Positions 2,982 to 59,673 of a stretch of DNA of 59,678 nucleotides are shown in pieces. The DNA is from Desulfobacterium sp. (lineage in GTDB: Bacteria; Desulfobacterota; Desulfobacteria; Desulfobacterales; Desulfobacteraceae), in contig JAEINR010000026.1 in the NCBI GenBank assembly GCA_016342325.1, positions 1 through 59,678 of the forward strand, given 5' to 3'. Position numbers and translations under genes: made by a program. The notes below the pieces were generated by a model, which was given only the letters and a program-made list of their open reading frames with translations, ran no database searches and had not been told where the DNA came from. How positions within the stretch are numbered: position 1 is the stretch's first letter; each line of letters starts with the position of its first letter.

Positions 2982-3012
2982 ACCAAACTCCTTTAGCGGG
3001 GTCGTTCATAAT

Positions 3013-3136
3013 GGGGGACACTCCCCCTATAGATGTTCGCACTTGAGCTGATACTCGCTTTACCGTTTTGGTAAAAAACGATATCAATTCATATGCGAAG
3101 ACCTATAAGTGTTTATAGAGAGAAGCGTCCCCTAAT
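3013..3136. repeat. Imperfect palindromic element upstream of the long Hsp70 gene
   Basis: This gap holds a nested inverted repeat. A tight hairpin GGGGGA-cac-TCCCCC sits at 3013-3027. A long imperfect stem follows: CTATAGATGTTCGCACTTGA starting near 3026 pairs with the reverse complement of the stretch 3082-3108, which reads TTATAGGTCTTCGCATATGA. The outer end at 3124-3136 reads GGGGACGCTTC on the minus strand, resembling the GGGGACACTCC start on the plus strand. A related palindrome lies before the other Hsp70 gene at 5005-5088. It could be a REP/MITE-like element or a structured 5' leader, since it lies about 30 nt upstream of the start at 2981. Confidence 0.6.
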
Positions 3137-3181
3137 TTTGTGAAGAGATACGCGCCCTTTCTTTTTACTATTTTACCTGTT

Positions 3182-4987
3182 TTATTCTGATTTCGGCCGT
3201 ACATTGAACTCAAGCTTCCAGCGCCGGTCATCGTCCCGTGAACAAGCCCAGAATTCAAGGGTGCCAATTTCGGTGAGTCTCACCTCAAAGGTCACCGGGA
3301 TAACCGTATTAGCTTCCCCCTCAAGAATGGTCTCGATGGTGGATAGCTCCCGGATCTCCTCATGCTCCCAGTTGTCGACGATGTTACCAACCATATCCTG
3401 GTGACGGATGGTTGACGTCATGATATCGAATCGAACGACATCCCCCACAACCAGGTTGAAGAGCCGGCCTTCGTTCACCGCGCCAGTCCCCTCTTCCATG
3501 CCGAATGGGGCGATGCACAGCGCCCGGGTTGGCAGGACGATGCCGGGGACTGCCGGCATGGAAGCCTCCACCGCCAGATAGTAGGAACAACCGAGGCCGC
3601 CCCGAATTCGAATGCCGTCACCCTTGGCGGCACGGCCATAGTACGCTGCCCCCCGTGCAACACTCAAATCAAAATCACCGGTATCGATCACCCGGATCGG
3701 CCCCTGGCCCTCACCTTCGCTCCAGAAGGCGAGGGTCTCCATGACCCGCTCCCGCAGGGCCGGGGATTTCATCACACCGCCATTGAACACAACGGCCGTT
3801 GGCAGGCGAACCTGGCCCTGGGCGTCCCTGTGGGCCGAAACAAACTTGGCCAGGTGGCGGGTGATGCCGGGATCGGACGCATAGCCCAGGCCAAACTCCC
3901 TGATTCCGGACACATTGTTTTGGGCAGGTTTCTGATCAAGGCCCCCTTCCGGAAAGAAACCGTCCAGGACGATCTTCTCCACATCAGCGTACTCAAGCGT
4001 TGACTTGATGGTTCCCTTGATAAGTCCGGACCCCCTCCCCAGGATCGTCACAGGATACTCTCCCCGACTATCCCCGGTGAATAGAGATTCCTTTGCTTTT
4101 CTGCAGGAGTGGACAAGCCCCCTCATCTGCCAGGCATCCAGTTTTTTCCCTTTTTCCCGTAGCTTTGATGCAAGAAAATAGCCCAGGGCAAGATCGATGT
4201 TATCGCCACCCACAAGGAGATGGTCTCCCACGGCAAGCCGCTCAAGGGCAAGAGCACCCCCCTCTTCTTCCTGAACCTCGATGAGACTGAAATCACTGGT
4301 TCCGCCCCCGATATCGCAGACAAGAACGAGGTCACCTTTTTCAACCTTGTCCCGCCAGTCATCCCCGGACCTGTCGATCCAGGAATAGAACGCCGCCTGG
4401 GGTTCCTCGATAAGGGTGATATCGGTCAGGCCCGCCATGTGGGCAGCCTGGACGGTGAGCTCCCTTGCCACGGCGTCAAAGGATGCCGGGACCGTCAAAT
4501 AGATTTCCTGATTCTCAAGAAAAAGAGCGTCATCGTTTCCGGCCATCTCAAAATTCCATGCCTGCCGGATGTGGGAAAGGATACTGCTTGAAGCCCGCAC
4601 AGGAGATATCTTTTCAACATTATCCGGACTTCCCCAGGGAAGGACAGCATCCTCCCGGTCAACCTGGCCATTACAGAGCCAGGACTTTGATGAGCTGACA
4701 AGCTTATGGGGCACTTCGGCTCCCCGATCCCTGGCAAATGCTCCCGCGGTCATGGTATTTTGATCGCTCCACGGCAGGGCAAGGGAGGCGTCCGAAACCT
4801 CACCCCCCTCCAGCAGATAGAGGAAGGATGGAAGGGTCTCCCGCGCTTCAAGGACACCAGCCCCTGTGAGTTGGGGTATTTTAAAAACCTTTATTTCGGA
4901 CTCATCGGTTGTTACGGCATCGGTGTAGGCCACAACGCTGTTGGTTGTTCCAAGGTCGATACCGACAATGTAGCGGGCATTTTTCAC
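3182..4987 (-). CDS. Hsp70-like ATPase, short form
   Basis: Hsp70-family ATPase of 601 residues, paralogous to the 923-residue protein downstream. GIDLGTTNSVVAY at residues 9-21 is phosphate loop 1; LTVPASFDAVAREL, EEPQAAFYSW and CDIGGGTSDFSLIE follow in the same order and spacing as in the paralogue, and VFNGGVMKSPALRER is the adenosine-loop motif. The two align through the ATPase core and a following region containing WACSRDDDRRWKLEFNVRP (compare SVSSHRWKLEFQLRD in the longer protein), but this one stops there and lacks the roughly 300-residue tail. No canonical peptide-binding lid is visible. It is the middle gene of the DUF2760-Hsp70-Hsp70 set. The family is clear; the client is unknown. 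Confidence 0.93.
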   Translation of the reverse strand: MKNARYIVGIDLGTTNSVVAYTDAVTTDESEIKVFKIPQLTGAGVLEARETLPSFLYLLEGGEVSDASLALPWSDQNTMTAGAFARDRGAEVPHKLVSSSKSWLCNGQVDREDAVLPWGSPDNVEKISPVRASSSILSHIRQAWNFEMAGNDDALFLENQEIYLTVPASFDAVARELTVQAAHMAGLTDITLIEEPQAAFYSWIDRSGDDWRDKVEKGDLVLVCDIGGGTSDFSLIEVQEEEGGALALERLAVGDHLLVGGDNIDLALGYFLASKLREKGKKLDAWQMRGLVHSCRKAKESLFTGDSRGEYPVTILGRGSGLIKGTIKSTLEYADVEKIVLDGFFPEGGLDQKPAQNNVSGIREFGLGYASDPGITRHLAKFVSAHRDAQGQVRLPTAVVFNGGVMKSPALRERVMETLAFWSEGEGQGPIRVIDTGDFDLSVARGAAYYGRAAKGDGIRIRGGLGCSYYLAVEASMPAVPGIVLPTRALCIAPFGMEEGTGAVNEGRLFNLVVGDVVRFDIMTSTIRHQDMVGNIVDNWEHEEIRELSTIETILEGEANTVIPVTFEVRLTEIGTLEFWACSRDDDRRWKLEFNVRPKSE

Positions 4988-32031: not shown

Positions 32032-33154
32032 TGTCTTTTTTATCCCACACAAAGCCCATGGTTTTCAATCTCCAGCCTTTAAGCGAGGTTATCCTGCCGA
32101 CATATCTTCCTGGGGAGAGTTTGTCCCAATCCGCCTTGGAAAATCCAAGTGCTCTACCCTGGCATATTCTGGCTGCGGCCGTCAGGAAATAAGGATCCGG
32201 GCTCCACTCAAACAGCCACCGGTCGCCGAACTTCGAGGGAATATCCATGGTAAAGGGGGCCGTAAGTGCACTGGCCTGTGAAAGCGGTTTCTCCCGTCCA
32301 TGGCACCGGTTAAACAATTTACCTGCCCGTTGCCATCCCTTCATCACCAGACTTCCATGCTTGGCATAAAAGATTCTTTCGGACTGGACCATAAAGCTGC
32401 GCTTAAACGCAAGTTCATCCCTGCCGCACTGGTCATAGTAGTGAACCGCCCCGGCCGTTGGCTCCATCACAAGGTGAAACCCGGCTTTTTTAAGGCGATG
32501 GAAGAGATCCGTGTCCTCATAGTATAAGAAGAAGTCCTCATCAAAAAGCCCCCCTGAACGCTCAACCGCCTCTCTTTTCAAGAGTACCGCCCCACCGGAC
32601 AGATTGGACACGGTAACAGGCGTGTGGGCCTGCCAGTATTTCAGGGCATAACGCCGCCATAACCAACTGGCCAGTCTTCTCATGTTCCAGGGATTTTCGC
32701 CAAGGGAAGATAAAAAAGCGGAAAACCATGGGGGCATGGAAGGGGGCAGCATCACCCGGCAATCATCGTCCCAGAAGATCCTGGGAGCGACCGCCCCGGT
32801 CAACGGATGGGAAAAAAGAACTTTTTCCATCACCCCAAGGGCCCCCGGCAGAAGGCGGGCATCCGGATTGAGCAGCAGCACCATATCGCTTTCCACCATA
32901 TCAAACGCCTGGTTGCAGGCCCTTCCAAACCCCCTGTTCTCCCGGTTGACCACAAGGCGGATATCGGCTCCTGCCAGACCATCCTGGGAAAAACCCTTCT
33001 CAAGGATTTCAACCTGGGACCGGTCCCGGCTGTTATCCACCACAACAATCACCATGGAACCCAGGCTTGGGTCAGCGGATTCAACAATGGATCTTACGGC
33101 TTTTATGCAATAGTCTGCCGCCTTATAATTCACCACAATACCAAGCAGTTTCAT
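32024..33154 (-). CDS. GT2 glycosyltransferase, rhamnosyltransferase-like
   Basis: Family 2 transferase of about 376 residues (ATG at 33154 overlaps the Wzt stop as ATGA; the upstream in-frame ATG at 33166 is less likely). LLGIVVNYKAADYC, VVVDNSRDRSQVEIL, LLLNPDARLLPGALG (NPDAR in the metal-site position) and FDEDFFLYYEDTDLFHRLKK are the marks of WbbL/RfbF-type rhamnosyl transferases. A C-terminal extension of about 100 residues (FGDRWLFEWSPDPYFLTAA) is not part of the GT domain. It is translationally coupled to the exporter ATPase and to the YfhO gene, so it belongs to synthesis of the exported chain. Confidence 0.92.
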   Translation of the reverse strand: MKLLGIVVNYKAADYCIKAVRSIVESADPSLGSMVIVVVDNSRDRSQVEILEKGFSQDGLAGADIRLVVNRENRGFGRACNQAFDMVESDMVLLLNPDARLLPGALGVMEKVLFSHPLTGAVAPRIFWDDDCRVMLPPSMPPWFSAFLSSLGENPWNMRRLASWLWRRYALKYWQAHTPVTVSNLSGGAVLLKREAVERSGGLFDEDFFLYYEDTDLFHRLKKAGFHLVMEPTAGAVHYYDQCGRDELAFKRSFMVQSERIFYAKHGSLVMKGWQRAGKLFNRCHGREKPLSQASALTAPFTMDIPSKFGDRWLFEWSPDPYFLTAAARICQGRALGFSKADWDKLSPGRYVGRITSLKGWRLKTMGFVWDKKDNA

Positions 33155-34332
33155 TCTTCGATCCACCCATACTCAAGTTCCAGCAACCCCATCTCATCCT
33201 CCCAGGCTTCCGGGGAAAGCACGGTCAATGTGGCGGAATCACGCCGGTGATAGACATGGTACTTTGATTCATCAAGCAGGGACACCACAATGCCGAACTC
33301 ACCGTGGAGCAGGGGCAGTCGGGGATATTTCAAGGATATTTCCCCCCGGCCAAGGCCCTTCAGGGGTTCGGCCCTGTCCCTTGAGAGGTTGACGGCATGG
33401 CAGATGAGCTCATCGCTTCTCTTGAAGCCCACGGCAATCCAGAAGGGAACCTCCTGGACCATCTCGTACTCGATGGTCACCGTCAGGTCATCCCTGGATG
33501 AAATCGAGATATCACCGGCCTGGTTGTTCAAAAGCACATTGAGAATTCTTACGGGCAACAGCTTGTTTTTTGCCCGGCCTTCAATGGCCTGGGCTTCCCC
33601 TTCAGTAGACCGTTTCCTGCACCAGTTTTCATAGGAGGCGGTGACCCGTGTTGCAACATCACTTTCCCGTACGGTTCCGCCATGTATCCACATGGCATCG
33701 GGGCAGAGCAGATTAACCGTGTACATTGCATGGCTGCAGAAAAGAATGGTCTTGCCCTTGTTTCTAAATTCAAGCATCCGGTCGATGCATTTCTTCTGAA
33801 AATACTGATCCCCGACGCTCAGGGCCTCGTCAATGATCAGGATATCCGGGTCCACACTTGTGGCAATGGAAAACGCAAGCCTCACGACCATGCCCGAAGA
33901 GTAAGTCTTCAAGGGGCGGTCCATGAAATCGCCGAGTTCGGCAAACTCAATAATGGCATCTTCCCTCTCTTTTATTTCATTTTGACTGAGTCCGAGAAGG
34001 GATGCATTGAGAAAGATGTTCTGGCGACCGGTAAACTCAAAATGAAACCCGGCACCAAGCTCAAGCAAAGCCGCCACCCGGCCATGTACAATCAACTCTC
34101 CCGAAGTGGGGGAAAGGGTGCCGGCAAGGATCTTGAGCAGGGTGCTTTTCCCTGCCCCGTTGTCTCCGATGATGCCGAGGGTGCTTCCCTTGTCCATGGA
34201 AAAAGATATATTTTCAAGGCTTTGAATGGGCTGATGAAAAGGCCTTCTAAAAACGATCTCTTTTAACCTGTCCACAGGTCTATGGTAAAACTTGTACACC
34301 TTGGAAAGATTTTTGACTTCAATTGCTTTCAT
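33151..34332 (-). CDS. wzt: Polysaccharide ABC exporter ATPase with carbohydrate-binding C-terminal domain
   Basis: ATP-binding subunit of an O-polysaccharide exporter, 393 residues. Walker A GDNGAGKST is at 56-64, the signature YSSGMVVRLAFS near 144, Walker B ILIIDEAL near 165 and the switch His in LFCSHAMY. From about residue 255 a beta-sandwich domain follows (ISSRDDLTVTIEYEM to the end), as in Wzt proteins that recognise the finished, end-modified chain. Methyl- and acyltransferase genes next to it fit a terminator-recognition scheme. Its permease partner is not adjacent: the only ABC-2 permease is at 44183-44986, 9.9 kb upstream. Confidence 0.94.
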   Translation of the reverse strand: MKAIEVKNLSKVYKFYHRPVDRLKEIVFRRPFHQPIQSLENISFSMDKGSTLGIIGDNGAGKSTLLKILAGTLSPTSGELIVHGRVAALLELGAGFHFEFTGRQNIFLNASLLGLSQNEIKEREDAIIEFAELGDFMDRPLKTYSSGMVVRLAFSIATSVDPDILIIDEALSVGDQYFQKKCIDRMLEFRNKGKTILFCSHAMYTVNLLCPDAMWIHGGTVRESDVATRVTASYENWCRKRSTEGEAQAIEGRAKNKLLPVRILNVLLNNQAGDISISSRDDLTVTIEYEMVQEVPFWIAVGFKRSDELICHAVNLSRDRAEPLKGLGRGEISLKYPRLPLLHGEFGIVVSLLDESKYHVYHRRDSATLTVLSPEAWEDEMGLLELEYGWIEE

Positions 34333-44182: not shown

Positions 44183-44986
44183 CTAGAGGACATCGCCAAA
44201 GGCGGGTTTGAGCCTCATGAAGAGCCAGGCGCCAACGGCATAGGAGAGAAACGAGATGATCGCCACCTGGACAAAAGCCAAAGGGTCTATCCTGTGGAGA
44301 AGCAGGACTCCCCGGTAGAGCTCAATGAACAGGGCCATGGGGTTTAAGCCTAGGAGAGGATGAAGGGACTCGGGCACCATGGAAACGGGATAGATCACAG
44401 GGGTGCCGTAGAACCACACCATGACGATCAGGGGCACAAGCTCGGCAAAATCCCTCACAAACACGCTTGCGGCCGATACAAAGCAGACCACCCCCATGAC
44501 AAACAAAAACTGCAAGAACACCAGGGGAACCACCCAGAGCCAGGAGAGATAAACGCCTGTTTTAACGGCCAGGAAGATCAGGAAGATCACAAACCCAATG
44601 CCGTTTGTGATGAACACGGCTCCGCAGCTTGCCAAGGGCAGAAGCTCAACGGGAAAGACCACCCGGGTGATGAGGCTTGCGTTCCCGATGAGGATCCCGG
44701 GAGCCTTTCCAAGGGTCTCTGCAAGAAAAAGCCAGGGGAAAAAACCTGCAAGGAAAAATATGGCAAAGCTGTCCGTTCCCGTATCCTCAACGGTCACACT
44801 GATCCTGAGCACCAGGGAAAAAAGAAATATGTAGATGCAGATATTGGCAACCGGATGGACAAGGGTCCACAGGGTTCCTGCAAAGGAGCCTGCAAAACGC
44901 CCCTTGATCTCCCTCAGAACAAACTCCCGTAACAGGTTGTATTTCTTGACTGCCGATACAACAGGCGCAAACATGAGCAAAGACAC
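44183..44986 (-). CDS. wzm: Polysaccharide ABC exporter permease (ABC-2)
   Basis: Membrane subunit of the O-polysaccharide exporter, 267 residues with six helices. REFVLREIKGRFAGSFAGTLWTLVHP is the amphipathic N-terminal ABC-2 motif (given in full as two parts, REFVLREIKGRFAGS and GTLWTLVHPVANI), and MVWFYGTPVIYPVSMVPES is the conserved loop before the last two helices. Starts: GTG at 44986 or ATG at 44974; AGGG lies upstream of both. Its ATPase partner Wzt is at 33151-34332 on the same strand, with unrelated genes between. GT4 follows after 9 nt. Confidence 0.94.
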   Translation of the reverse strand: MSLLMFAPVVSAVKKYNLLREFVLREIKGRFAGSFAGTLWTLVHPVANICIYIFLFSLVLRISVTVEDTGTDSFAIFFLAGFFPWLFLAETLGKAPGILIGNASLITRVVFPVELLPLASCGAVFITNGIGFVIFLIFLAVKTGVYLSWLWVVPLVFLQFLFVMGVVCFVSAASVFVRDFAELVPLIVMVWFYGTPVIYPVSMVPESLHPLLGLNPMALFIELYRGVLLLHRIDPLAFVQVAIISFLSYAVGAWLFMRLKPAFGDVL

Positions 44987-45003: not shown

Positions 45004-45696
45004 CTATTGGTTTTTGGCCTTGTTGATAAAGTCCATGAATTTATTATGAAATTCAGGATTTTTACTTTGCTTCTGCTGGCTTTTTTTGATCATTTCAAGG
45101 AATGTGGCTGCACTCGTTTTGTTTGAAGCTGCTGCAGTGGGATCCTTTGGAGGAGTATTAATTTTCACGGAAGACTCTTTTTTCGAAGCAGGATTTTTAT
45201 TTTTTGTTCCTTTAACAGCATCTTTTTTCCCAGCAACCTGTATTGAAGAAACACCCGTCTTCCCCACAGAATTATCAGGAGCTTCTCGGATATTGATCTG
45301 TTCTACTTTCAGAGGGAAAGGCCTGTTTTTACTACTTTTATAAAGATCAAGGCGAACCGTCTCTTTTTTATTTGAAAGCAGAACATAATTTTTTCCGATC
45401 TTTTTGACCACCATCTCTCTTATCATGTCGCCTGTCTGCAAAATAGTTTTAGTTTTTTTGCTCTTTTTATCCCGAATAAAAACCTTACTCTTGCCTTGGG
45501 ATTTTATCACTCCTGTAAAATCAAGTTCCCTTTTCAGTTTTTCTGTAAGTTCAGACTTCTTGTTTACATTTTTATCCTCTTTATGATGTGGTTTATGAAC
45601 AAATATGTGTTTTTCAACCATTTCGGATGCATATACAGATTGCCCCAGGAATAAAAAATTCAACGAACAAACGCATAATAAAATTTTCATGATCAT
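45004..45696 (-). CDS. Secreted protein with GspC/PilP-like domain
   Basis: A 230-residue Lys-rich protein: signal peptide to about residue 24 (GQSVYAS), then residues 55-125 with LDFTGVIKSQGKSKVFIRDK, TILQTGDMIREMVVKKIGKN and YVLLSNKKETVRLDLYKS. That layout (short beta barrel with a G-D-x-I...V-V-x-I-x...Y-V-L-L pattern) is the homology-region fold of GspC and PilP, periplasmic parts of type II secretion and type IV pili. The C-terminal half is low-complexity Lys/Ser/Thr with a final helix. AAGGA precedes the ATG. Next to secreted proteins, a secretion role is tempting but unproven. Confidence 0.6.
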   Translation of the reverse strand: MIMKILLCVCSLNFLFLGQSVYASEMVEKHIFVHKPHHKEDKNVNKKSELTEKLKRELDFTGVIKSQGKSKVFIRDKKSKKTKTILQTGDMIREMVVKKIGKNYVLLSNKKETVRLDLYKSSKNRPFPLKVEQINIREAPDNSVGKTGVSSIQVAGKKDAVKGTKNKNPASKKESSVKINTPPKDPTAAASNKTSAATFLEMIKKSQQKQSKNPEFHNKFMDFINKAKNQ

Positions 45697-46006: not shown

Positions 46007-47611
46007 TTAGTCTGCAACCGACAGTGAAACCAGATTTTTTACCACAAGATTCCCCTGGTTAATCACATCTGCAATATCCTTTTCAATATCTTTATCTGTT
46101 GTATATGCGTAACAATACCACAATTTTTCGCCGACTATTGAATAGCCAAGCTTTTCCAGATTCAGTTCCGGAATCAAAGGATTTAAAAGATAATCTTCGG
46201 TTGTAACTGCAACCCTTGCATCTGCCGGATAATCTACAGCAGTATCCCAGTCGATAAACTCCTTGCCATTATAAAAAAAGGAGAACTCTTGCCCCCCCTG
46301 TATTCCTCCAATTAAAATCCATTCCTGCACAGGCGTGTCACCTGATTTTGGTGTCATGTTAAGCATACAATAATAATTATCTTTCAGGCCAACCTGTTTG
46401 GTAATGATTCCAGGCTCATGTCCAATCTTGTCATAACTATCATAAACAGCATTGAGCAGGCTGGTGCCATCTAAAATCCCATGGCCGAAAATATCATCCC
46501 TGCCATAGTTCCCAAGATCCCTGGAACCGCTGTAAAGCAGATCTATAATATCAAAACTGCTGAACCCGGGGAACTTTGATTTTAACAGTGCCGCAGCACC
46601 TGATATCATGGGCGTACTAAAGGAAGTGCCTGATGCATATGAGGAAGTGTTGCCAAGGGTGGTCACTTCAACAGCCACACCAGGAGCAACAATATCAAGC
46701 TCAGGTCCCTGGGGTGAAAACCAGTAGGCAATTGTTTCACTGTCATACATTGACCCCACAGCAACAACTTCTTCCATTGCAGCTGGAAACTCAACGGCAC
46801 CGCCATAGTTACCGGACGCACCGACAATTATACAACCGGCTGTTGAAGCGGCTTTAACTGCGCTTTGCACGGCCATGGAAGCATCAGTTATTGTGACACT
46901 CAAATTTATAATATCGGCTTTCATCTGCACCGCATAATAGATGCCCTCTGCAAGCTCTCCGGTATTAATTTGAAAACCGCCGCCGGAATTCAGCTTAACG
47001 GGCAGCACAGTACACTGGGGCGCGATTCGTGCGAGAATCGAAGTAACCATTGTCCCGTGTTCATGCTCATCCATGGGAACATTATCCATGTCCCCCATAT
47101 CCCATCCGGACAGATCATCAACATAGCCATTCTTATCATTGTCAATACCATCTTCTGGATTTTCACCGGAATTTGAAAACAGCATGGATACAAACAGGGC
47201 ATTCTCAAGGTCAATGCCCGTGTCAAGCACTGCCACAATGGTGCCAGAGCCTGTGGAAAGCTGCAGAAGTCCTCCCTTTTCGATAATATTTTCCCAGGTA
47301 TATTCATTTGATACCGGTTCCGATTGAATATGAACCGATTTTACCTGTTCAATAAAATTCACATGGCCTGAAGATTCAAAAAATTCCAGGATCTCAGTCT
47401 TATCTTTTGAATCAACCCAGATGCGAAAAAGAGTTGTACCTGGAATCTGCCTTATTTTTTCAACTGTTTCAGGCCATGCAAAAGATGAAGAACCTGGTTT
47501 TAAGGAGACATTAAACTCAATACGATCTTCTCCAAAAGCCTGGGGCACAACTCCAAGAGCAAGAAAAATCAAACAAACCAAGTAAACAAAAAATTTTTTA
47601 TGTATTGCCAT
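46007..47611 (-). CDS. Secreted subtilisin-family serine protease (S8) with shared C-terminal domain
   Basis: A 534-residue exported protease. Signal peptide to about residue 27 (PQAFG), a propeptide-like region to about 110, then the S8 domain with Asp130 (VAVLDTGID), His185 (HEHGTMVTS), oxyanion Asn268 (GASGNYGG) and Ser330 (SGTSFSTPM). An Asp-rich loop (DGIDNDKNGYVDD) resembles a calcium site. Residues from about 410 form an extra domain (SGDTPVQEWILIGG, KLWYCYAYTTD) that matches the end of the S-layer-like protein encoded just upstream. The gene follows that gene's terminator with its own GAGGG ribosome site. It may process or anchor to the surface layer. Confidence 0.93.
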   Translation of the reverse strand: MAIHKKFFVYLVCLIFLALGVVPQAFGEDRIEFNVSLKPGSSSFAWPETVEKIRQIPGTTLFRIWVDSKDKTEILEFFESSGHVNFIEQVKSVHIQSEPVSNEYTWENIIEKGGLLQLSTGSGTIVAVLDTGIDLENALFVSMLFSNSGENPEDGIDNDKNGYVDDLSGWDMGDMDNVPMDEHEHGTMVTSILARIAPQCTVLPVKLNSGGGFQINTGELAEGIYYAVQMKADIINLSVTITDASMAVQSAVKAASTAGCIIVGASGNYGGAVEFPAAMEEVVAVGSMYDSETIAYWFSPQGPELDIVAPGVAVEVTTLGNTSSYASGTSFSTPMISGAAALLKSKFPGFSSFDIIDLLYSGSRDLGNYGRDDIFGHGILDGTSLLNAVYDSYDKIGHEPGIITKQVGLKDNYYCMLNMTPKSGDTPVQEWILIGGIQGGQEFSFFYNGKEFIDWDTAVDYPADARVAVTTEDYLLNPLIPELNLEKLGYSIVGEKLWYCYAYTTDKDIEKDIADVINQGNLVVKNLVSLSVAD

Positions 47612-47620
47612 AACACCCTC

Positions 47621-47663
47621 ATAAAAAAAAGGGCAGGAAGCATCATTTCGCCCCCTGCCCTTT
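47621..47663 (-). terminator. Rho-independent terminator of the S-layer-like gene
   Basis: On the minus strand AAAGGGCAGG, a 16-nt loop and CCTGCCC are followed by an uninterrupted run of T (about 11). It lies 57 nt beyond the stop at 47720 and just before the protease gene. Confidence 0.88.
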
Positions 47664-51189: not shown

Positions 51190-53535
51190 TTAGTTCTCTA
51201 TATAGGGTTTGCCTTTTACATAGAGGTTACGCCTTTTTTTAATATCTGCTATCAGCCCTTTCCTGCCCTGTAATTTTGCAATTTCCACTGCACGGGATGC
51301 AATGTTTGAAGCTTTTTCAAAATTCCCAAGGGCAGCGTAAGCTGCCGCCATAATATCCAGGAGTCTGGGATCTTTTTTTCCACTCAACTCCACCGCTCTC
51401 CTTACGAGAGACAGGGCTGTTTTGCCGTTGGGGATGGAATCATCGCCATACACCGACAGCACCCAGGAAAGCCTTGACAGGGCATGAATATTATCCGGAC
51501 TGACAGAGAGCAGATCCCGAAAACAGGCCGCCCCCTTTTTATATTTTTTTTCAAGCAGGTATAGATTGCCCAGATTGTTTAAGGCATCAATGTAGTCAGG
51601 CTCAATTTCAAGGGCTTTTTTAAAATGAGTTTTTGCATCATCATAGCGTCCAAGGATTGCCAGAACAGTTCCCGTATTGTTGTGGGCCTTTGCAAGACCC
51701 GGGTCAAGATCAAGGCAATGCCTGAAGTTATCAAGGGCTTTGTTATATTTGCCCATAACCGCGTAAACCTTTCCCAGGTTGTTGTAGGCGGCAGCAAGAT
51801 CAGGGTTTAGGGCCACAGCCTTTTTGCCGCAGACAAGGGCTTTTTCAACATCCCCATATTGAGTGTACAGCAGGCTTAGATTGTTAAATGCCTCGGCAGA
51901 TCCAGGGTCCAGGCTTGCGGCCTTTTCCAGGTGAAAGGTTGCTTTTTCAAATTGTTTCATGCCCAAAAAAATATTTCCAAGATTATTGTGTACATCCGAA
52001 GCCATGGGGGTCAGCTCCAATGACCTGAAGTAAGAAACAAGAGCATCCCCATTGCGGCCAAGGGAGGTATACACTTTTCCCAGATTACTGTGAAGGGTAC
52101 TCATATCAGGGTTTATGGAAAGGCCGTATTTGTAGTGGGTGATGGCTTTTTGAAAATTCCCGGCTTCTGCATATGCCTTTCCAAGATTTTTATGGGCCAC
52201 AAGATTCCGGCTTCCGTGGGCCAGACTGTTTTCCCACAGGGCAATGCTGTTTTCCCATACCATATTTCGATTGATGGATATGACCGATAAAAAGAGGAGG
52301 ATTAAAACCGGAACAAAAAGGAGTCCATATTTTAAAGCCCTGGATTTTTTCCCCAATGGGCTGGCCACACAGAATCTGTACAGCGCATATGAAAAAAAAA
52401 GGAAAAGACCCACCGAGGCAATATAGATATACCGATCAGCCATTTTTATGGAAACCGGTATGATGTTTGATGCGGGAAGAAAAGTTAAGACAAACCATCC
52501 GGCGCAGAAGAGGTAAATCCTCTCCCCTTTTTTATAGCTTCTCCACAGAAAAAAAAAAATTAACAGTCCGCAGATCAGGGATGCGATGACTTTACCCTCA
52601 TAAAGAGTGTTGGAAATAAAATCTATATAGCGGTTGTTCAGCCAAAGGGGCAGGATCAGATTTCTTGCATAATCAAAAAGAACCCTGAGCATTGTATAAA
52701 ATGTGTAAACCGGTCTGCCAAACGGATGTGCAGAAACAGCTCCGCCGGCCCCTCCCCCCAGCAGAGAGCCCCAGAACAGCATGCCGGATACGGCAAGGGC
52801 CGCAAGATATGGTGCATATACCGCAACCCGAGCCTTGAACACAAAATAAAGCCCCTCTTCCTTTCTGACCCGGCACAGGTCGTACAACAGAAATAAAAAT
52901 GGGATCATTAAACCAAAGGGGCTTGAAAAAATGGCAAGAACAACTGACAAAAAAGACCCGGCACGAAAAAGGGCACCTGTCCACCCTTTTTTCTCACTGC
53001 CGGTGAAAAGATAAAATGATAAAAAGGAGAAAAAACCGACCAGGGTGTATTTTCTGCCGGAAAGCCATGAAACCGCCTCGACGTTTACCGGATGAACAAC
53101 AAAGAGAAGGGTTGTCATCAGTGAAATATAAACCACCGCTCCTGTTGATATCCCCCCTTTTTGCGGCATGTTTTCATCTATCCGGATAAGGTTTGGAATA
53201 ATCCTGAGAAGGGTCAGAAAGAGCAATAGAGCGGCCGCCCAGTGAAGAAAGATACTGTGAAGATGATATCCGTATGGATTCAACTCCCAAAGGGCATAGT
53301 CAAGTGCATAGCTCAAATCCCGAACCGGCTGGAAGGTATGACCCTTTACCGGAGTGAAGATCTTTTTCAGATTATCGATGTCCAGGGAGCGGATCGAAAG
53401 ATTTTCTAGTATGAGCTGATCATCATCCCAGTTGGTGAACTCATTTGTGATGGAATTTGAATACACCCCCACGGTGAAAAAAAGGATGATAAAAATCTGA
53501 ACCGGTCTGGTTTTCACAATTGAAACAAAATTCAT
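51190..53535 (-). CDS. TMTC-like GT-C membrane protein with TPR repeats (copy 1)
   Basis: A 781-residue protein: about nine membrane helices in residues 10-430 followed by eight to ten TPR repeats (for example NLGKAYAEAGNFQKAITHY, NNLGNLYLLEKKYKKGAACF). The first extracytoplasmic loop holds TNEFTNWDDDQLILEN; its paired Asp are placed as the catalytic acid of GT-C enzymes. TFQPVRDLSYALDY, HPVNVEAVSWLSGRKYTL and SIKMADRYIYIASVG match motifs of bacterial relatives of the TMTC (DUF1736) family. It is the last of three paralogues, 5 nt after the second, with AGG before the ATG. It probably transfers a sugar from a lipid carrier to exported protein; TPRs may bind the partner. Confidence 0.85.
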   Translation of the reverse strand: MNFVSIVKTRPVQIFIILFFTVGVYSNSITNEFTNWDDDQLILENLSIRSLDIDNLKKIFTPVKGHTFQPVRDLSYALDYALWELNPYGYHLHSIFLHWAAALLLFLTLLRIIPNLIRIDENMPQKGGISTGAVVYISLMTTLLFVVHPVNVEAVSWLSGRKYTLVGFFSFLSFYLFTGSEKKGWTGALFRAGSFLSVVLAIFSSPFGLMIPFLFLLYDLCRVRKEEGLYFVFKARVAVYAPYLAALAVSGMLFWGSLLGGGAGGAVSAHPFGRPVYTFYTMLRVLFDYARNLILPLWLNNRYIDFISNTLYEGKVIASLICGLLIFFFLWRSYKKGERIYLFCAGWFVLTFLPASNIIPVSIKMADRYIYIASVGLFLFFSYALYRFCVASPLGKKSRALKYGLLFVPVLILLFLSVISINRNMVWENSIALWENSLAHGSRNLVAHKNLGKAYAEAGNFQKAITHYKYGLSINPDMSTLHSNLGKVYTSLGRNGDALVSYFRSLELTPMASDVHNNLGNIFLGMKQFEKATFHLEKAASLDPGSAEAFNNLSLLYTQYGDVEKALVCGKKAVALNPDLAAAYNNLGKVYAVMGKYNKALDNFRHCLDLDPGLAKAHNNTGTVLAILGRYDDAKTHFKKALEIEPDYIDALNNLGNLYLLEKKYKKGAACFRDLLSVSPDNIHALSRLSWVLSVYGDDSIPNGKTALSLVRRAVELSGKKDPRLLDIMAAAYAALGNFEKASNIASRAVEIAKLQGRKGLIADIKKRRNLYVKGKPYIEN

Positions 53536-53540
53536 AAGAC

Positions 53541-55484
53541 CTATTTTATAGTCTCCCCCAGGATGGCTGTCAGATTCTTCTTTGCATCTAAAAGGCCCGG
53601 GTCAAGATTTAGGGCTGTCCTGTAATGATGTATGGCCTTTGTGTTTTCTCCCAGTGCATAATAGGCTGCCCCCAAATTGTTGTGAGCGCCTGCATATGCA
53701 GGATCAATGCGGACGGCTTCAAGAAAATGATTGGCGGCTTTTCTGTAATCGCCCAGATTAAACAGAACCACACCGATATTGTAATGCCCGGCGGCATCCT
53801 CGGGGGTCAGGAGAAGGCATTGGGACAACGCCGTTACCGCTCCGGGAAAATCCCCGGTTCTGAACCTCATAATACCAAAATTTTTCCATGCATCTGAATA
53901 TCTCGGGTTGATTTTAAGGGCATTTTCAAGGTGGTTTTCAGCCTGCCCGTGCTTTTTCGCTTCAAAAAGCAGGATGGCAATATTTACATGGGCCTTGTAA
54001 TGATCCGGATCAATCCGGATGGCCTCATTGTAGTGGAAAATTGCCTTTTTGGCCTGCCCTTTTAAATCCAGGGCATATCCCAGGTTGTAATGGGCTATTG
54101 TATTTTCATAATCCTTTTCAAGACTATCGGACCACAATGATATGCTGTCGGACCAGATAAAATTTCTCTGACAGCTTAACAGGGAAAAACAGATAACAAG
54201 GCCACCTATTATGGCATGGGGCATCCAGCGAAGGACAGCATCTTTTTTAAAGACTGCCTTTGAGATAAAAAGGTGAATAACCAGCAGCCATATCCCTGAA
54301 GCGGCCAGATAGAGATACCTGTCAGCCATCTTTGTTGAAATTGGGATAATATTTGATACGGGCACCCAGAAAATCAAAAACCACCCCACACAAAAGAGTG
54401 TAAATTTTCTGCCTTTTACGGTTAAATAGACACAGGTTCCCAACAGGGTAAAAAGGGAAAACAAAGAAATAAGAACCTTCAACTCCAGGGGGGACAGGGA
54501 AATATAATCAACATATCTGTTGTTCAGCCAAAAGGGAAGGAACAGGTTGCGGGCATAATCGAAAAGCACCCTCAACATTGTATAAAATGTATTTGAGGGA
54601 TTGCCCATGTAATGCTCGGCAGCGGCCCCACCCGACGGGGCAAGCACCAGTATCTTCACCAAAAGCCAGACAGCCGCAGTTCCGGCAATCAAATATGGAA
54701 GATGATATATGATCCGGCGTTTCAGGACCAGCACGGGATTGTTGCTTTTGTCCCTGCAGTAATCATATAAAAAAAACAGGCCGGGTATAACCACACCAAA
54801 GGGGCTTGAAAGTACCGCTGCGGCAAATGAAAAAAATCCAAGGGATAAAAAAACCGGATGGTACCTGTTGTCTTCTGAACTTCGCACAAAAAAGTAAAGC
54901 GATAAAAATGTAAAAAAGGCAAGAAGGCAGTATTTTCTGGAGGAAAGCCAGGTAACAGACTCAACATTTACAGGATGTGAGATAAAAATGAGTGCGGTAA
55001 ACAGTGCTGTCCACTGAATATTACTTTTTTTCAGGCCTTCGCCGCCACAGCGTTCTGCAATCCTGGGAATCATCCTTAATAAAGAGAGGAACAGCAGCAT
55101 GCCTGCCATACTATGAAGTATTATATTGTGAAAATGATACCCCCGTGGATCAAGTTCCCAGAAATAATAATCTATCATGTAACTCAGCAGCCTGACAGGC
55201 TGAAAAGTGGCGCCACTTTTTGGTGTAAAAATGGTTTTAATATTCTCATAGGTCATGGTAGTGATAGACCTGTTTTCAACGATCAAATCCGGATCATCCC
55301 AGTTGGAAAAACCGTTTCCAATGGAGTTTGCATATACAGCAACCGCCAGGACTAAAATAATCAAGCTTCCTGCTGTGGCAAAGTTGAAGGGGAATCGGGT
55401 TCCCGGTCCGACGGCCACGGCTGGATCCGTACTTATCTTATCGCGGTTTTCCAATCTACTTTTTTTCGATCTTTTTACAGTCAT
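53541..55484 (-). CDS. TMTC-like GT-C membrane protein with TPR repeats (copy 2)
   Basis: A 647-residue paralogue. A basic cytoplasmic start (MTVKRSKKSRLENRDK) precedes the first helix. The catalytic-type loop reads GNGFSNWDDPDLIVEN, and TFQPVRLLSYMIDYYFWELD, HPVNVESVTWLSSRKYCL and STKMADRYLYLAASG follow in the same order as in its sisters. Five to six TPR units make up the C-terminal 190 residues (HYNLGYALDLKGQAKKAIFH, HNNLGAAYYALGENTKAIHH), fewer than in the other two copies. The ribosome site is weak. Tandem copies with different TPR lengths suggest different protein partners. Confidence 0.85.
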   Translation of the reverse strand: MTVKRSKKSRLENRDKISTDPAVAVGPGTRFPFNFATAGSLIILVLAVAVYANSIGNGFSNWDDPDLIVENRSITTMTYENIKTIFTPKSGATFQPVRLLSYMIDYYFWELDPRGYHFHNIILHSMAGMLLFLSLLRMIPRIAERCGGEGLKKSNIQWTALFTALIFISHPVNVESVTWLSSRKYCLLAFFTFLSLYFFVRSSEDNRYHPVFLSLGFFSFAAAVLSSPFGVVIPGLFFLYDYCRDKSNNPVLVLKRRIIYHLPYLIAGTAAVWLLVKILVLAPSGGAAAEHYMGNPSNTFYTMLRVLFDYARNLFLPFWLNNRYVDYISLSPLELKVLISLFSLFTLLGTCVYLTVKGRKFTLFCVGWFLIFWVPVSNIIPISTKMADRYLYLAASGIWLLVIHLFISKAVFKKDAVLRWMPHAIIGGLVICFSLLSCQRNFIWSDSISLWSDSLEKDYENTIAHYNLGYALDLKGQAKKAIFHYNEAIRIDPDHYKAHVNIAILLFEAKKHGQAENHLENALKINPRYSDAWKNFGIMRFRTGDFPGAVTALSQCLLLTPEDAAGHYNIGVVLFNLGDYRKAANHFLEAVRIDPAYAGAHNNLGAAYYALGENTKAIHHYRTALNLDPGLLDAKKNLTAILGETIK

Positions 55485-55584
55485 TTTTTAAAAATCTCGT
55501 ACAAATGAAAAAATTATTATCACAGGATTCATTGATGGAATATTAAACAACCTGAGCGAGACTGCCATATGGATACAATCTGGC

Positions 55585-57894
55585 TCAATTATTTTGCCTC
55601 TTCAGTGACCTTGCTGTCTTTGCCAATCCGATCCTGGCATTCCTGTTTAAAGGATCTATCTTTATTACCCTTGCAAAAAAGTTAAATGCTTTTTCATATT
55701 TTTCCAGCTTTAAATACAGATTGCCCATGTTGTTGTTAACTTTTATATGGCCGGGATTTATCAAAAGCGCCTGGTGGAAATGACTTACTGCCATATTAAT
55801 CTGCCCTTTTCCCAGGAAAATTATGCCTAAATTGTTATGAGCCTGGACATGATCCGGTTTTAACCTAACAACTGTCTTATACTGTTTTGCTGCAGCATCG
55901 CCATTTCCCTGACCGGCAAAAATAACACCAAGATTGTAGATTGAATCCACATGATCAGGCTTTTCAACCAGTACCTCTTGAAAGCAACTTGCAGCAAGTT
56001 CTTTTTTCCCTTTTTGGAACCAGACCAGTCCGATATTGTAACGTGCAGAAAAATTATAAGGATCAATCTCGATTATTTTCTTAAATTTTGCGTATGCATC
56101 ATCATATTGTCCAAGGGCATACAGAATTTTTCCGATTTTTTCAAGAATTGCCGGATCATCCGGCCTTATATCAAGTGCCCTTCTAAAATAATTGATTGCT
56201 TCACCATTTTTATTCTTTTCCGACAAAACAGTTCCAAGGCTTGTGAGAGTCTCAATATGCAGAGGGTTAAGCCTGAACGCTTCAAGGTACCGTACAGCAG
56301 CCCCATCCACTTCTCCCATGCGCTGCAGAGTATTTCCCAGATTATATTGGGCATCGAAAAAATCGGGGTCAATCTCCAATGCAAGTTTCAAATGTTTCAA
56401 AGCCAGGTCAAAACGTTTCATGCGTGAATAAATAACACCAAGATCACTGTGAACCCTTTTTTCCGCAGGATTTATTTTCAGGGCTTTTTTAACGTTGGCC
56501 AGGGCTTCATCCAGCCTGTTCTGCTTCGCCAGAACCTGTCCAATGGCTATATACGCCAGAACATTTGGTTCCTTTTCAATACAGTCCAGCCAGAGAGTTT
56601 CGCTGTTCTGCCATACACGATTTCGCTGAACAGTCATAACGGAAAAAAAGATGATCAAAATAACCGGAAAGAGATTAACCCCTAATTTTTTCAGTTTTTC
56701 AGAAGTCAATCCACTAAAAAATGTAATAAAAAAGTATGTAAACAGAAGAAAAAGTCCCACAGCCGGCAGATAAAGATAACGATCTGCCATCTTGGTGGAT
56801 ATAGGAATTAAATTTGAAACCGGAAGCCATGTAACAAAAGTCCAACCAAAGCAGAACAAAGGAAACCTGTTCTTGTTCCTGATCGATTTTACCGTGTACA
56901 AAATACCGGCGATCATCCCCAATGATGCGGCAATAACCTTCCAGTTCATAAATGACACTGTTAAATCATCAATATATCGGCAGACCAGCCAGAAAGGGAG
57001 GATTAAATTCCGCAAATAATCAAAAAGAATCCTGAACATGGTAATTCCCCTGGCACCAGCATTCTCAGCGAACGTGCCAATCATTGTTCCGCCTGTTCCG
57101 CCGCCAAGAATCGTATACCAGAAAAGAAACAGGGCAATAGAAAAGAAAATCAAATAGGGAATATGAGATTTGTATCTATGTTTCAGCACAACAAAGGGAT
57201 TCAAGCTATCCTCTCTGCAGTAGTCATAGAGAAAAAAAAGAACGGGAAACACAATACCAAACGGGCTTGAGAAAATGGTGATCAGCCAGGCCGCAAACGC
57301 CCCAGCGGCAAGACCCGGCCTGAGAACCTCCCTTTCAGTACTCTTTACAAAAAGATAAAAAGAGAGAAATCCCCAAAAGGTCAAAAGCGTATACTTACGC
57401 CCCGAAAGCCAGGTTACTGCCTCGACATTAACCGGGTGAACAACAAAGAGCAGTGCGGTAAAAAGAGCGGATAATTTATATGGGGAGATACTTGAAACAG
57501 AGTCTGCAAATGGCTCCTGGGATGGAGCTATATGTGGAATCAGCACGTTAAGTGAAAGGAAAAGAAAAACTCCGGCAAATCCGTGCAGCAGGATACTGTG
57601 GATATGGTAGCCTGCCGGAGAGAACTTAAAAAGCCGGTAGTCAATGCAATAGCTTAGCACTCTTACCGGCTGGAATGTCTTTCCTTTCTCTGGAAGGAAT
57701 AAATCCAGCAAATCCGCAACATTCAGAGATCTAATGGATTCATTATTTACGATCAGCTCATCATCATCCCAATTGATAAATTCATTGGTAACAGAATTGG
57801 CATATACAGCCAGTGCAATTGCCACAATTAAAAATGATGAAACAGAGATGAAATGCTTTTTACAGATATTATATTTGTCACCAAATATCATCAA
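55585..57894 (-). CDS. TMTC-like GT-C membrane protein with TPR repeats (copy 3)
   Basis: A 769-residue paralogue, the first transcribed of the three. Loop VTNEFINWDDDELIVNNES, then TFQPVRVLSYCIDYRLF, HPVNVEAVTWLSGRKYTLL and STKMADRYLYLPAVG, which is the motif preceding the last helices in TMTC proteins. Nine to ten TPR repeats follow from about residue 440 (YNLGNTLQRMGEVDGAAVRY, NNLGIIFLGKGQINMAVSHF). AAAAGG lies upstream of the tandem ATG ATG start. A 100-nt gap separates it from copy 2, so the three may share a transcript. The DD of NWDD is kept in all three copies, so all look catalytically competent. Confidence 0.85.
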   Translation of the reverse strand: MMIFGDKYNICKKHFISVSSFLIVAIALAVYANSVTNEFINWDDDELIVNNESIRSLNVADLLDLFLPEKGKTFQPVRVLSYCIDYRLFKFSPAGYHIHSILLHGFAGVFLFLSLNVLIPHIAPSQEPFADSVSSISPYKLSALFTALLFVVHPVNVEAVTWLSGRKYTLLTFWGFLSFYLFVKSTEREVLRPGLAAGAFAAWLITIFSSPFGIVFPVLFFLYDYCREDSLNPFVVLKHRYKSHIPYLIFFSIALFLFWYTILGGGTGGTMIGTFAENAGARGITMFRILFDYLRNLILPFWLVCRYIDDLTVSFMNWKVIAASLGMIAGILYTVKSIRNKNRFPLFCFGWTFVTWLPVSNLIPISTKMADRYLYLPAVGLFLLFTYFFITFFSGLTSEKLKKLGVNLFPVILIIFFSVMTVQRNRVWQNSETLWLDCIEKEPNVLAYIAIGQVLAKQNRLDEALANVKKALKINPAEKRVHSDLGVIYSRMKRFDLALKHLKLALEIDPDFFDAQYNLGNTLQRMGEVDGAAVRYLEAFRLNPLHIETLTSLGTVLSEKNKNGEAINYFRRALDIRPDDPAILEKIGKILYALGQYDDAYAKFKKIIEIDPYNFSARYNIGLVWFQKGKKELAASCFQEVLVEKPDHVDSIYNLGVIFAGQGNGDAAAKQYKTVVRLKPDHVQAHNNLGIIFLGKGQINMAVSHFHQALLINPGHIKVNNNMGNLYLKLEKYEKAFNFFARVIKIDPLNRNARIGLAKTARSLKRQNN

Positions 57895-57975: not shown

Positions 57976-59673
57976 TTACACTCTATTACATAAAACTGCA
58001 CAGATTCTTGATTGATCCGTTTGAGTTAAGTAAGGATGCATGGGAAGACTGAATATTCTTGAAGAGCAATCTTCCGACACAGGAAAATCTCCTTTTTTGT
58101 AACCCAGGTCGGCAAAGGCTGTCTGCAGATGCAGAGGCGTTGGATAGTAAACTGCTGTCGGGATTAATTTTTCTTTGAGCATATCCTGGATGTTCTGTCT
58201 TGTTTCTCTGTCCGGTGCCAGCAAAGAATACTGAGCCCAAGCGCTTTTTATCCCGGGAAAAACCCGGGGAAGAGTCAGAAGGTCTTTCCTGGATTCTAAT
58301 TGCTCAATATATATTTTGGCAACACTTCGCCGGGATTCAAGTTCCCCGGGGAATATTTCCAGTTTGGGAAGCAAAATGGCCGCTTGCAGGGTATCTAAAC
58401 GGCCATTGAGTCCCAAACGGATATTATCGTATTTATCTTTTCCCTTGCCGTGCAGTCGAATGGACTCAAGCCTGTCTGCAAGTTCATCTGAATCTGTAAA
58501 TACTGCCCCGCCATCACCGTAACACCCAAGAGGTTTTGCCGGAAAAAAGGAGGTGCAACCAGCATGGCCAAGGGAGCCTGCCATTCGGCCTTTATATTCG
58601 GCGCCAAAGGACTGGGCGGCATCTTCAATAACCGTCAGATCATATTCCGAGGCAATCTGGTTTATCCGGTCATAATCGCAGGGCAGTCCAAACAGATCAA
58701 CAGGGATTACGGCCTTTGGAGTAAGACCTCCATATTTGCTTAAAAGTTGAACCTTTTGTTTCAGTTTTGCAGGGCAGATATTAAAGGTTGCATAGTTAAT
58801 ATCAACAAACACAGGTGTTGCCCCAAGCAGGCTGATTACCTCAGCTGTGGCAATGAATGTAAACGGGGTTGTAAAAACAGCATCTCCAGGTCCTATTCCA
58901 TGGGCCATCAAGACCATGAGCAGGGCATCTGTTCCTGAAGCACAGGTGACAGCACAGCGAACTTGTACAAAATCAGCCAGCCTTTTTTCCAGTTCTTTTA
59001 CCTCCGGTCCCATAATATATTTGCCGTGTTTCAGAACAGCCTTAATATTGGCTTCAATCCCAGGCAGAATCTTTTTTTGTTGAGCGGCCAGATCCACAAA
59101 GGCAATGGGGCCGGATTCCAGCTTAATTGTTTTATTGCATACCGGGCAAGTCAATTCCTGATTCAGCTTTTCTCCGCATTGACACATCCAGCCCGTCTGC
59201 CTGGCAGGATTACCCATGACCAGTGCATGGTCGGGTATATCCTTTGTAACCACGGCACCAGCGCCTACCAAGGCATATCTACCAATGGTTACACCACATA
59301 CAATGGTGCAGTTTGCCCCCAGTGTTGCCCCCTTTTTCACCAGGGTTGGACGGACCTCGTCCATGCGTTTGATATGGGATCTTGGGTTAAAAATATTGGT
59401 AAACACCATGGATGGACCGCAAAACACATCATCCTCCAGGGTGACACCCTTGTATATGGAGACATTGTTCTGAATCTTGCAGCCGTTCCCCACAAATACA
59501 TCAGGCCCTGCAACGACATTCTGTCCAATATTGCATCTTTCACCGATACTGGTATTTTTCATAATATGGGAAAAATGCCATATTTTTGTAGCTCTTCCTA
59601 TTTTCACATTATCATCCACCTCAGATGTCGGGTGGAGGAAAACATCATCTTTTTCATATGAGCGCAATGACAT
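57976..59673 (-). CDS. Fused WbpD-like N-acetyltransferase, zinc ribbon and DegT aminotransferase
   Basis: A 565-residue fusion. Residues 12-160: left-handed beta-helix acetyltransferase with hexapeptide repeats ([20 protein letters not shown]) and the WbpD/WlbB-type H34 in WHFSHI. Residues 164-179: zinc ribbon, Cys164, Cys166, Cys176, Cys179. Residues 190-565: DegT/DnrJ/EryC1 PLP aminotransferase with FVDLAAQQ start, [12 protein letters not shown] (Asp351) and Schiff-base Lys380 in [15 protein letters not shown]. In Pseudomonas the two steps are separate (WbpE amination, WbpD acetylation) in making UDP-2,3-diacetamido sugars; here one chain could do both. The ATG is 6 nt from the window edge, so its ribosome site is not seen. 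Confidence 0.93.

Follow-up and report, generated by a model that had tools for sequence, protein, structure and literature searches.

GT-C glycosyltransferases such as ArnT, GtrII-like and similar enzymes add side sugars to lipid-linked glycans, and in the known S-layer glycosylation (slg-type) systems oligosaccharyltransferases move the whole glycan. The TMTC1-4 proteins (CAZy GT105) are the cadherin O-mannosyltransferases of animals, and TMTC-like GT-C/TPR proteins are widespread in bacteria. The TMTCs are described as having 11 membrane helices (PMC6801728), and full-length bacterial TMTC-like proteins have already been reported, for example in a deltaproteobacterium (PMC7801869). Our literature search on bacterial TMTC substrates returned no bacterial member with a shown substrate, and a search on the S-layer systems of the group returned nothing on point.

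Here, we analyzed a window, by which we mean the whole stretch of 59,678 nucleotides of a contig from Desulfobacterium sp. (order Desulfobacterales). Three tandem genes on its minus strand, at 51190-57894, each encode a membrane domain of about 440-455 amino acids followed by a TPR tail. The features of the locus are:

57976-59673, minus strand, fusion of a hexapeptide acetyltransferase with a DegT aminotransferase for amino-sugar synthesis, lying 81 bp 5' of the triplet
55585-57894, minus strand, TMTC-like GT-C/TPR protein c (P0003), 769 aa, start TTG, or ATG one codon on
53541-55484, minus strand, TMTC-like GT-C/TPR protein b (P0002), 647 aa, pLDDT of 92 for the modelled membrane domain
51190-53535, minus strand, TMTC-like GT-C/TPR protein a (P0001), 781 aa
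47720-50824, minus strand, secreted Thr/Ala-rich surface protein (P0004), 1034 aa, homologues at G045:C3, G104:C127, G423:C15 and G068:C327
47720-48121, minus strand, C-terminal domain of P0004, common to the subtilase
47628-47663, minus strand, terminator-like hairpin with 15 pairs and a T-run, between the surface protein and subtilase genes
46007-47611, minus strand, secreted S8 subtilase (P0005), 534 aa, with the same C-terminal domain as the surface protein
46007-46420, minus strand, C-terminal domain of P0005, common to the surface protein
45004-45696, minus strand, small exported GspC-like protein, with a weak likeness to the GspC homology region (type II secretion) below the NCBIfam cut-off
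44183-44986, minus strand, ABC-2 (Wzm-like) polysaccharide export permease, with the GspC-like gene as its neighbour here and in G045 and G104
33151-34332, minus strand, ABC ATPase (Wzt-like), 44-45% identical to ATPases near the cassette in G045, G104 and G423

The order of transcription is acetyltransferase/aminotransferase fusion, TMTC-like c, b and a, surface protein, S8 subtilase, GspC-like protein and ABC-2 permease, with successive gaps of 81, 100, 5, 365, 108, 310 and 17 bp, and the contig ends just past position 59673. As the original prediction stated, the triplet is located directly upstream of the large secreted Thr/Ala-rich protein; the two are on the same strand and 365 bp apart. 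The hairpin 3' of the surface gene is present in the window and in G104, and none is found at that place in G045. Taken together, the terminator scan is at chance level (7 found versus 6.7 expected), and the counts from the promoter and terminator scans over the whole region are near chance. The window also carries several glycosyltransferases, a UDP-sugar dehydrogenase, epimerases and Wzm/Wzt-like genes. The fusion at 57976-59673 probably combines a pair of diamino-sugar enzymes in a single chain. Two HSP70-like proteins, of which one has DUF3731, are encoded side by side at 210-4987, next to the polysaccharide island. The contamination estimate of the genome is 4.36%, given which the contig may be mis-binned.

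The motifs NWDD, TFQPVR, HPVNVE, W-L-S-x-RKY and KMADRY, which had been named from the sequence, are present in all three proteins, and the TPR tails differ in length as described, with about 190-340 amino acids after the membrane domains. The membrane domains are 45-47% identical in pairwise comparisons. A profile built from the triplet matched only these three proteins in their own genome (E<=0.001); across the order, it detected relatives in 197 of 291 genomes (E<=1e-10, with at most five candidates scored per genome in most cases). Together, these results exclude a chance origin of the likeness. The AlphaFold2 model of residues 1-455 of P0002, based on 64 sequences, has a pLDDT of 91.9 and a pTM of 0.91. 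A Foldseek search with this model placed ArnT (5ezm, E 7.5e-4) first and Pmt4 (9i5k, E 1.1e-3) second, with OST (6ezn), DPY19 (7zli) and PglB (6gxc) among the further leading matches and TM-scores of 0.40-0.50 for those named. The ten best hits were all GT-C proteins with a probability of 1.00, but their TM-scores were 0.34-0.50 and one of the ten had E<=0.001. The GT-C assignment, for which a structure prediction had been proposed, is supported by the resemblance of the model to ArnT, Pmt4 and OST. Eleven membrane helices were placed by hand from the model, the N-terminus is rich in lysine and arginine, and the TPRs follow helix 11; the TPR tail would be located in the exported compartment.

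PMT_2 matches 20 of the 64 members of the family alignment (best E 4e-11), whereas the membrane domains of the triplet match neither PMT_2 nor any other Pfam family, the lone hit at E 7.2 being noise. The TMTC_DUF1736 model of Pfam, whose presence in the library we assumed, has no match in the triplet up to E 10, and TMTC/DUF1736, under the same assumption, has none among the 64 members at E<=0.01. A PDB profile search with the family alignment yielded no matches up to E 1, so that no TMTC chain was matched, and the best 60 of 115 phmmer matches to the whole of P0002 were TPR proteins only. The best explanation is that the triplet consists of GT-C glycosyltransferases with a membrane domain of 11 predicted helices and a TPR solenoid predicted to lie in the periplasm. 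We do not claim formal membership in the TMTCs, since neither DUF1736 nor the M4 motif was found.

The acidic pair in the first external loop, after helix 1 (D63/D64 in P0002 numbering), is kept in 147 and 148 of the 149 rows with a letter at these positions, and in all three window proteins. The lysine in the third loop is presumably a POMT-type feature, absent from some GT-C families. The corresponding lysine binds Dol-P-Man in POMT (PMC6801728) and contacts the phosphate in modelled human TMTC1 (PMC7801869). At this site, position 227 of P0002, a single residue between helices 5 and 6, lysine is found in 132 of 155 alignment rows (duplicates of the window copies included). Serine is found in 11 rows, representing nine distinct proteins, namely the three of the window, L049, L050, L051/L014, L052, L053 and L054. 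Partial relatives that stop short of position 227, such as L070 and L073, were excluded. The 11 rows form one clade with a local support of 1.0 (FastTree), within which the support of the nodes varies, one being at 0.097. The triplet is thus, as a new observation, placed within a supported clade in which serine replaces the third-loop lysine in 9/9 alignable members. The replacement suggests a different donor contact, and the lysine-less clade provides a natural test of the role of that residue. Five loci of one Lentisphaeria bin (UBA12247) encode relatives of the triplet (L052, L053, L054, L070 and L073), and since the three testable ones all have the serine site, they suggest transfer between phyla.

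Among the TMTC motifs, M1 (DD) is present in the triplet and M7 (ERxxY) nearly so, as DRY-x-Y, while M3 (RxD) reads RKY and M4 (KE[T/Q]xxT) reads SSPF. R183 and D388-R389 are retained in all three proteins. The whole pocket pattern is common to the relatives, with SSPF accompanied by RKY or RKF in most of them. The loss of the lysine from all nine alignable members would fit a clade that no longer has transferase activity and serves as a TPR scaffold or a lectin-like receptor for a lipid-linked sugar. However, the acidic pair, R183 and D388-R389 are all kept in the triplet, and the pocket pattern shared with the relatives looks like a changed site rather than decay; we consider such a loss highly improbable.

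The start of the surface protein resembles a signal peptide, and its composition is 14.5% threonine and 14.9% alanine. Searches of Pfam and NCBIfam up to E 1 returned no match for it, and neither did Pfam up to E 10. No known S-layer or Ig-like domains were identified with these libraries, and the description of the protein as an Ig-like chain of beta-sandwiches was not confirmed. Two homologues gave hits below the threshold, MG2 (E 0.019) and PKD_5 (E 0.17), which carry no proof. Codon bias was considered as a sign of expression at the level of an S-layer and rejected, as the Nc of 46.9 for the surface gene is unexceptional among the window genes.

A new observation is that the surface protein and the S8 subtilase have a common C-terminal domain (36% identity over 143 columns, E 1e-18). 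The domain spans about 130 amino acids in the window proteins and about 110-140 among all carriers, follows the pattern GDTP..EW ... GD.L.YAYAY and has no match in Pfam or NCBIfam. It was detected in 4/291 genomes with a two-row profile and in 8/389 genomes with an eight-row profile, with 10 carriers in G045. Of 18 distinct complete carriers, 17 have the domain at their C-terminal end, with 0-3 residues after it. The exception is G076, where it is placed near the N-terminus; an 81-aa fragment in G156 was dropped from the count. A model from the two window sequences was unusable (pLDDT 47.4). The domain looks like a sorting or anchoring tag.

At E<=1e-5, the surface-protein profile matched 8/291 genomes of the order, in most cases via the C-terminal domain only; in a phylum sample, it matched 3/395 genomes at E<=1e-10. 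Six loci contain the body of the surface protein: the window, G045:C3, G104:C127, G068:C327, G068:C24 (partial) and G423:C15. Sequence identity is 27% between the window and G104 (over 875 columns), 30% between the window and G423, and 52% between G104 and G423, while BLASTP aligns only a short stretch of the window and G045 proteins, whose homology rests on the profile. The surface protein and the S8 subtilase both carry the shared C-terminal domain in the window and in G045; in G104, the surface protein carries it and the subtilase is cut by the contig end. The GspC-like protein and the ABC-2 permease are neighbours in all three genomes. The cassette of surface protein, S8 subtilase, GspC-like protein and ABC-2 permease recurs in two other families of the order, which is also new. 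Among the three genomes, identity is 39-46% for the subtilase, 42-61% for the permease, 44-61% for the ATPase and 27-36% for the GspC-like protein. As a separate observation, a stand-alone exported protein resembling the GspC homology region adjoins an ABC-2 polysaccharide permease in the three genomes, and a CAP-domain protein (Pfam CAP, E 6e-8) is placed by the G104 surface protein, with a similar-looking ORF, judged by eye, in G423:

window 45004-45696, L130:10814-11551 and L164:4276-5004, GspC-like proteins of the three genomes
L192:1337-2290 and L129:14257-15159, CAP-domain protein and similar ORF

In G045:C3, genes for a GT4, a GT2, a TMTC-like protein, the surface protein, the S8 subtilase, the GspC-like protein, the ABC-2 permease and the ATPase are all located within 15 kb. 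The TMTC-like gene (L130:1947-3943) is in two overlapping frames and is either a broken gene or an assembly error. The order in G104:C127 is TMTC-like, GT4, GT2, CAP protein, surface protein and S8 subtilase, which runs off the contig; the same contig carries the GspC-like, ABC-2 and ATPase genes at a distance of about 30 kb. G423:C15 contains a surface protein without the shared C-terminal domain, an S8 subtilase, an ABC-2 permease and an ATPase; the 40 kb read of this 43-kb contig include no TMTC-like gene. A TMTC-like gene is found 23 kb from the surface gene in G068:C327, and none in the 13 kb read of G068:C24.

A TMTC-like gene is located 0.4-3.8 kb from the surface gene in the window, G045 and G104. 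The co-occurrence of the two genes, which was to be examined by neighbourhood comparison, therefore holds in part, with adjacency within 4 kb in 3/6 loci and not in G423:C15, G068:C327 or G068:C24. The TMTC-like domains of G104 and G045 share 40% identity, but each has only 22-26% identity to those of the window. It is new that G045 and G104 also have a TMTC-like gene within 4 kb, but from a distant subfamily. While the cassette proteins are orthologue-like, the TMTC-like proteins are not, so that different subfamilies occupy one conserved slot. In both genomes, a GT2 gene is placed beside the TMTC-like gene, and we take it to be of the kind that makes polyprenyl-phosphate sugars.

The position of the triplet could be without meaning if the three genes were gained or multiplied within an island of envelope genes and act on other exported proteins. 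Only half of the surface-protein loci (3/6) show adjacency, TMTC-like genes are common and multi-copy, and both TMTC-like genes and the C-terminal domain are missing from the two other genomes sampled in the genus. Against this explanation, a naive calculation puts the chance of finding a TMTC-like gene at such a distance (about 4 kb or less) near 1% for each genome (3 copies in 4.5 Mb in G045, 2 copies in 2.2 Mb in G104), and adjacency in 2/5 non-window loci is expected about once in 1000, an estimate that ignores the clustering of envelope genes. We regard hitch-hiking as quite unlikely.

Several counts speak against a specific link. None of 80 TMTC-like loci in other genomes contained the surface protein, its C-terminal domain, the S8 subtilase or the GspC-like gene, and no TMTC-like gene was found in the stretches read around 13 other loci with the C-terminal domain. 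A one-sequence profile identified no DPM-like GT2 in the window at E<=1e-4. We also considered whether TMTC-like genes generally accompany large secreted proteins of low charge; the association appears in 7/80 loci by a crude filter that misses the G104 surface protein, and is uninformative. The suggestion of one enzyme per target class is unsupported, as G045 and G104 each have a single adjacent TMTC-like gene and at least two TMTC-like ORFs occur in 24/80 loci.

The close relatives of the triplet are found among polysaccharide genes without a surface protein, the nearest, L049 and L051, adjoining sugar-polymer genes. This is consistent with an alternative in which the triplet adds side sugars to a lipid-linked polysaccharide or LPS exported by the ABC transporter, and the surface protein is a mere neighbour. 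ArnT, the top fold match, acts on a lipid, and the window contains the Wzm/Wzt-like genes, glycosyltransferases, UDP-sugar dehydrogenase and epimerases as well as the fused amino-sugar gene just upstream of the triplet. However, the long TPR tails are tied to protein acceptors in the TMTCs, and, across three families, members of two distant TMTC-like subfamilies adjoin the surface protein. The polysaccharide role is the strongest alternative, possible but less probable than not.

The original prediction of a bacterial O-glycosylation system for a surface layer is partly supported: it retains the GT-C fold, the 11 helices, the TPR tail and the recurring link to a surface protein, but DUF1736 and the third-loop KE motif are absent. 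That the triplet glycosylates the exported surface protein is favoured by the GT-C model, the PMT_2 matches, the recurring cassette, the proximity of TMTC-like genes and the GT2 genes in G045 and G104. Weighed against it are the missing third-loop lysine, the unexceptional codon bias and the split TMTC-like gene in G045, along with the surface loci without an adjacent TMTC-like gene, the counts of 0/80 and 0/13, the lack of a DPM-like GT2 and the polysaccharide surroundings of the close relatives. On balance, we give this function a little under an even chance. In such a mechanism, the GT-C core would act in the periplasm, moving a sugar from its polyprenyl-phosphate donor onto serine or threonine residues of the passing surface protein, and perhaps also of its subtilase. 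The TPR solenoid, in the same compartment, would grip the acceptor, and the decorated surface protein would be placed on the surface via the shared C-terminal domain. Donor use, Ser/Thr transfer, acceptor grip and surface placement are inferred. A more specific version, a counterpart of the cadherin-TMTC system, is unlikely. In that version, two TMTC-like subfamilies would fill the slot of a dedicated surface cassette, comprising a surface protein and subtilase tagged by the C-terminal domain, a GspC-like adaptor and an ABC exporter, and one subfamily would have the SSPF donor site, perhaps for a non-mannose amino-sugar donor. The cassette pairs TMTC-like enzymes with one candidate acceptor, a protease and a C-terminal tag, which makes the question testable by glycoproteomics.

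In comparison with known systems, the C-terminal domain is similar to the sorting domains of T9SS (CTD) and PEP-CTERM proteins in its terminal position in 17/18 carriers and in the presence of up to 10 carriers per genome. It differs in having no Pfam or NCBIfam match and no identified cognate sortase or secretion machine, and in its placement near the N-terminus in G076. ArnT (GT83) and PMT/POMT (GT39, Pfam PMT/PMT_2) share the GT-C fold with the triplet according to Foldseek, and PMT_2 is matched by 20/64 relatives, but not by the three membrane domains of the window; to our knowledge, ArnT and PMT/POMT enzymes have no TPR tail. Like the slg-type clusters, as we understand them, the locus combines a surface gene with an adjoining ABC-transporter polysaccharide cluster that includes nucleotide-sugar genes. 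Unlike in those clusters, the only candidate transferases in the window are the TMTC-like GT-C genes. TMTC1-4 differ from the triplet in that the latter has no DUF1736 Pfam match, RKY instead of RxD in M3 and SSPF instead of KE(T/Q)xxT in M4. Nevertheless, the triplet is similar to TMTC1-4 in its 11 helices, the DD pair after helix 1, a motif of the R/D-R-x-x-Y type before helix 10 and C-terminal TPRs predicted in the exported compartment.
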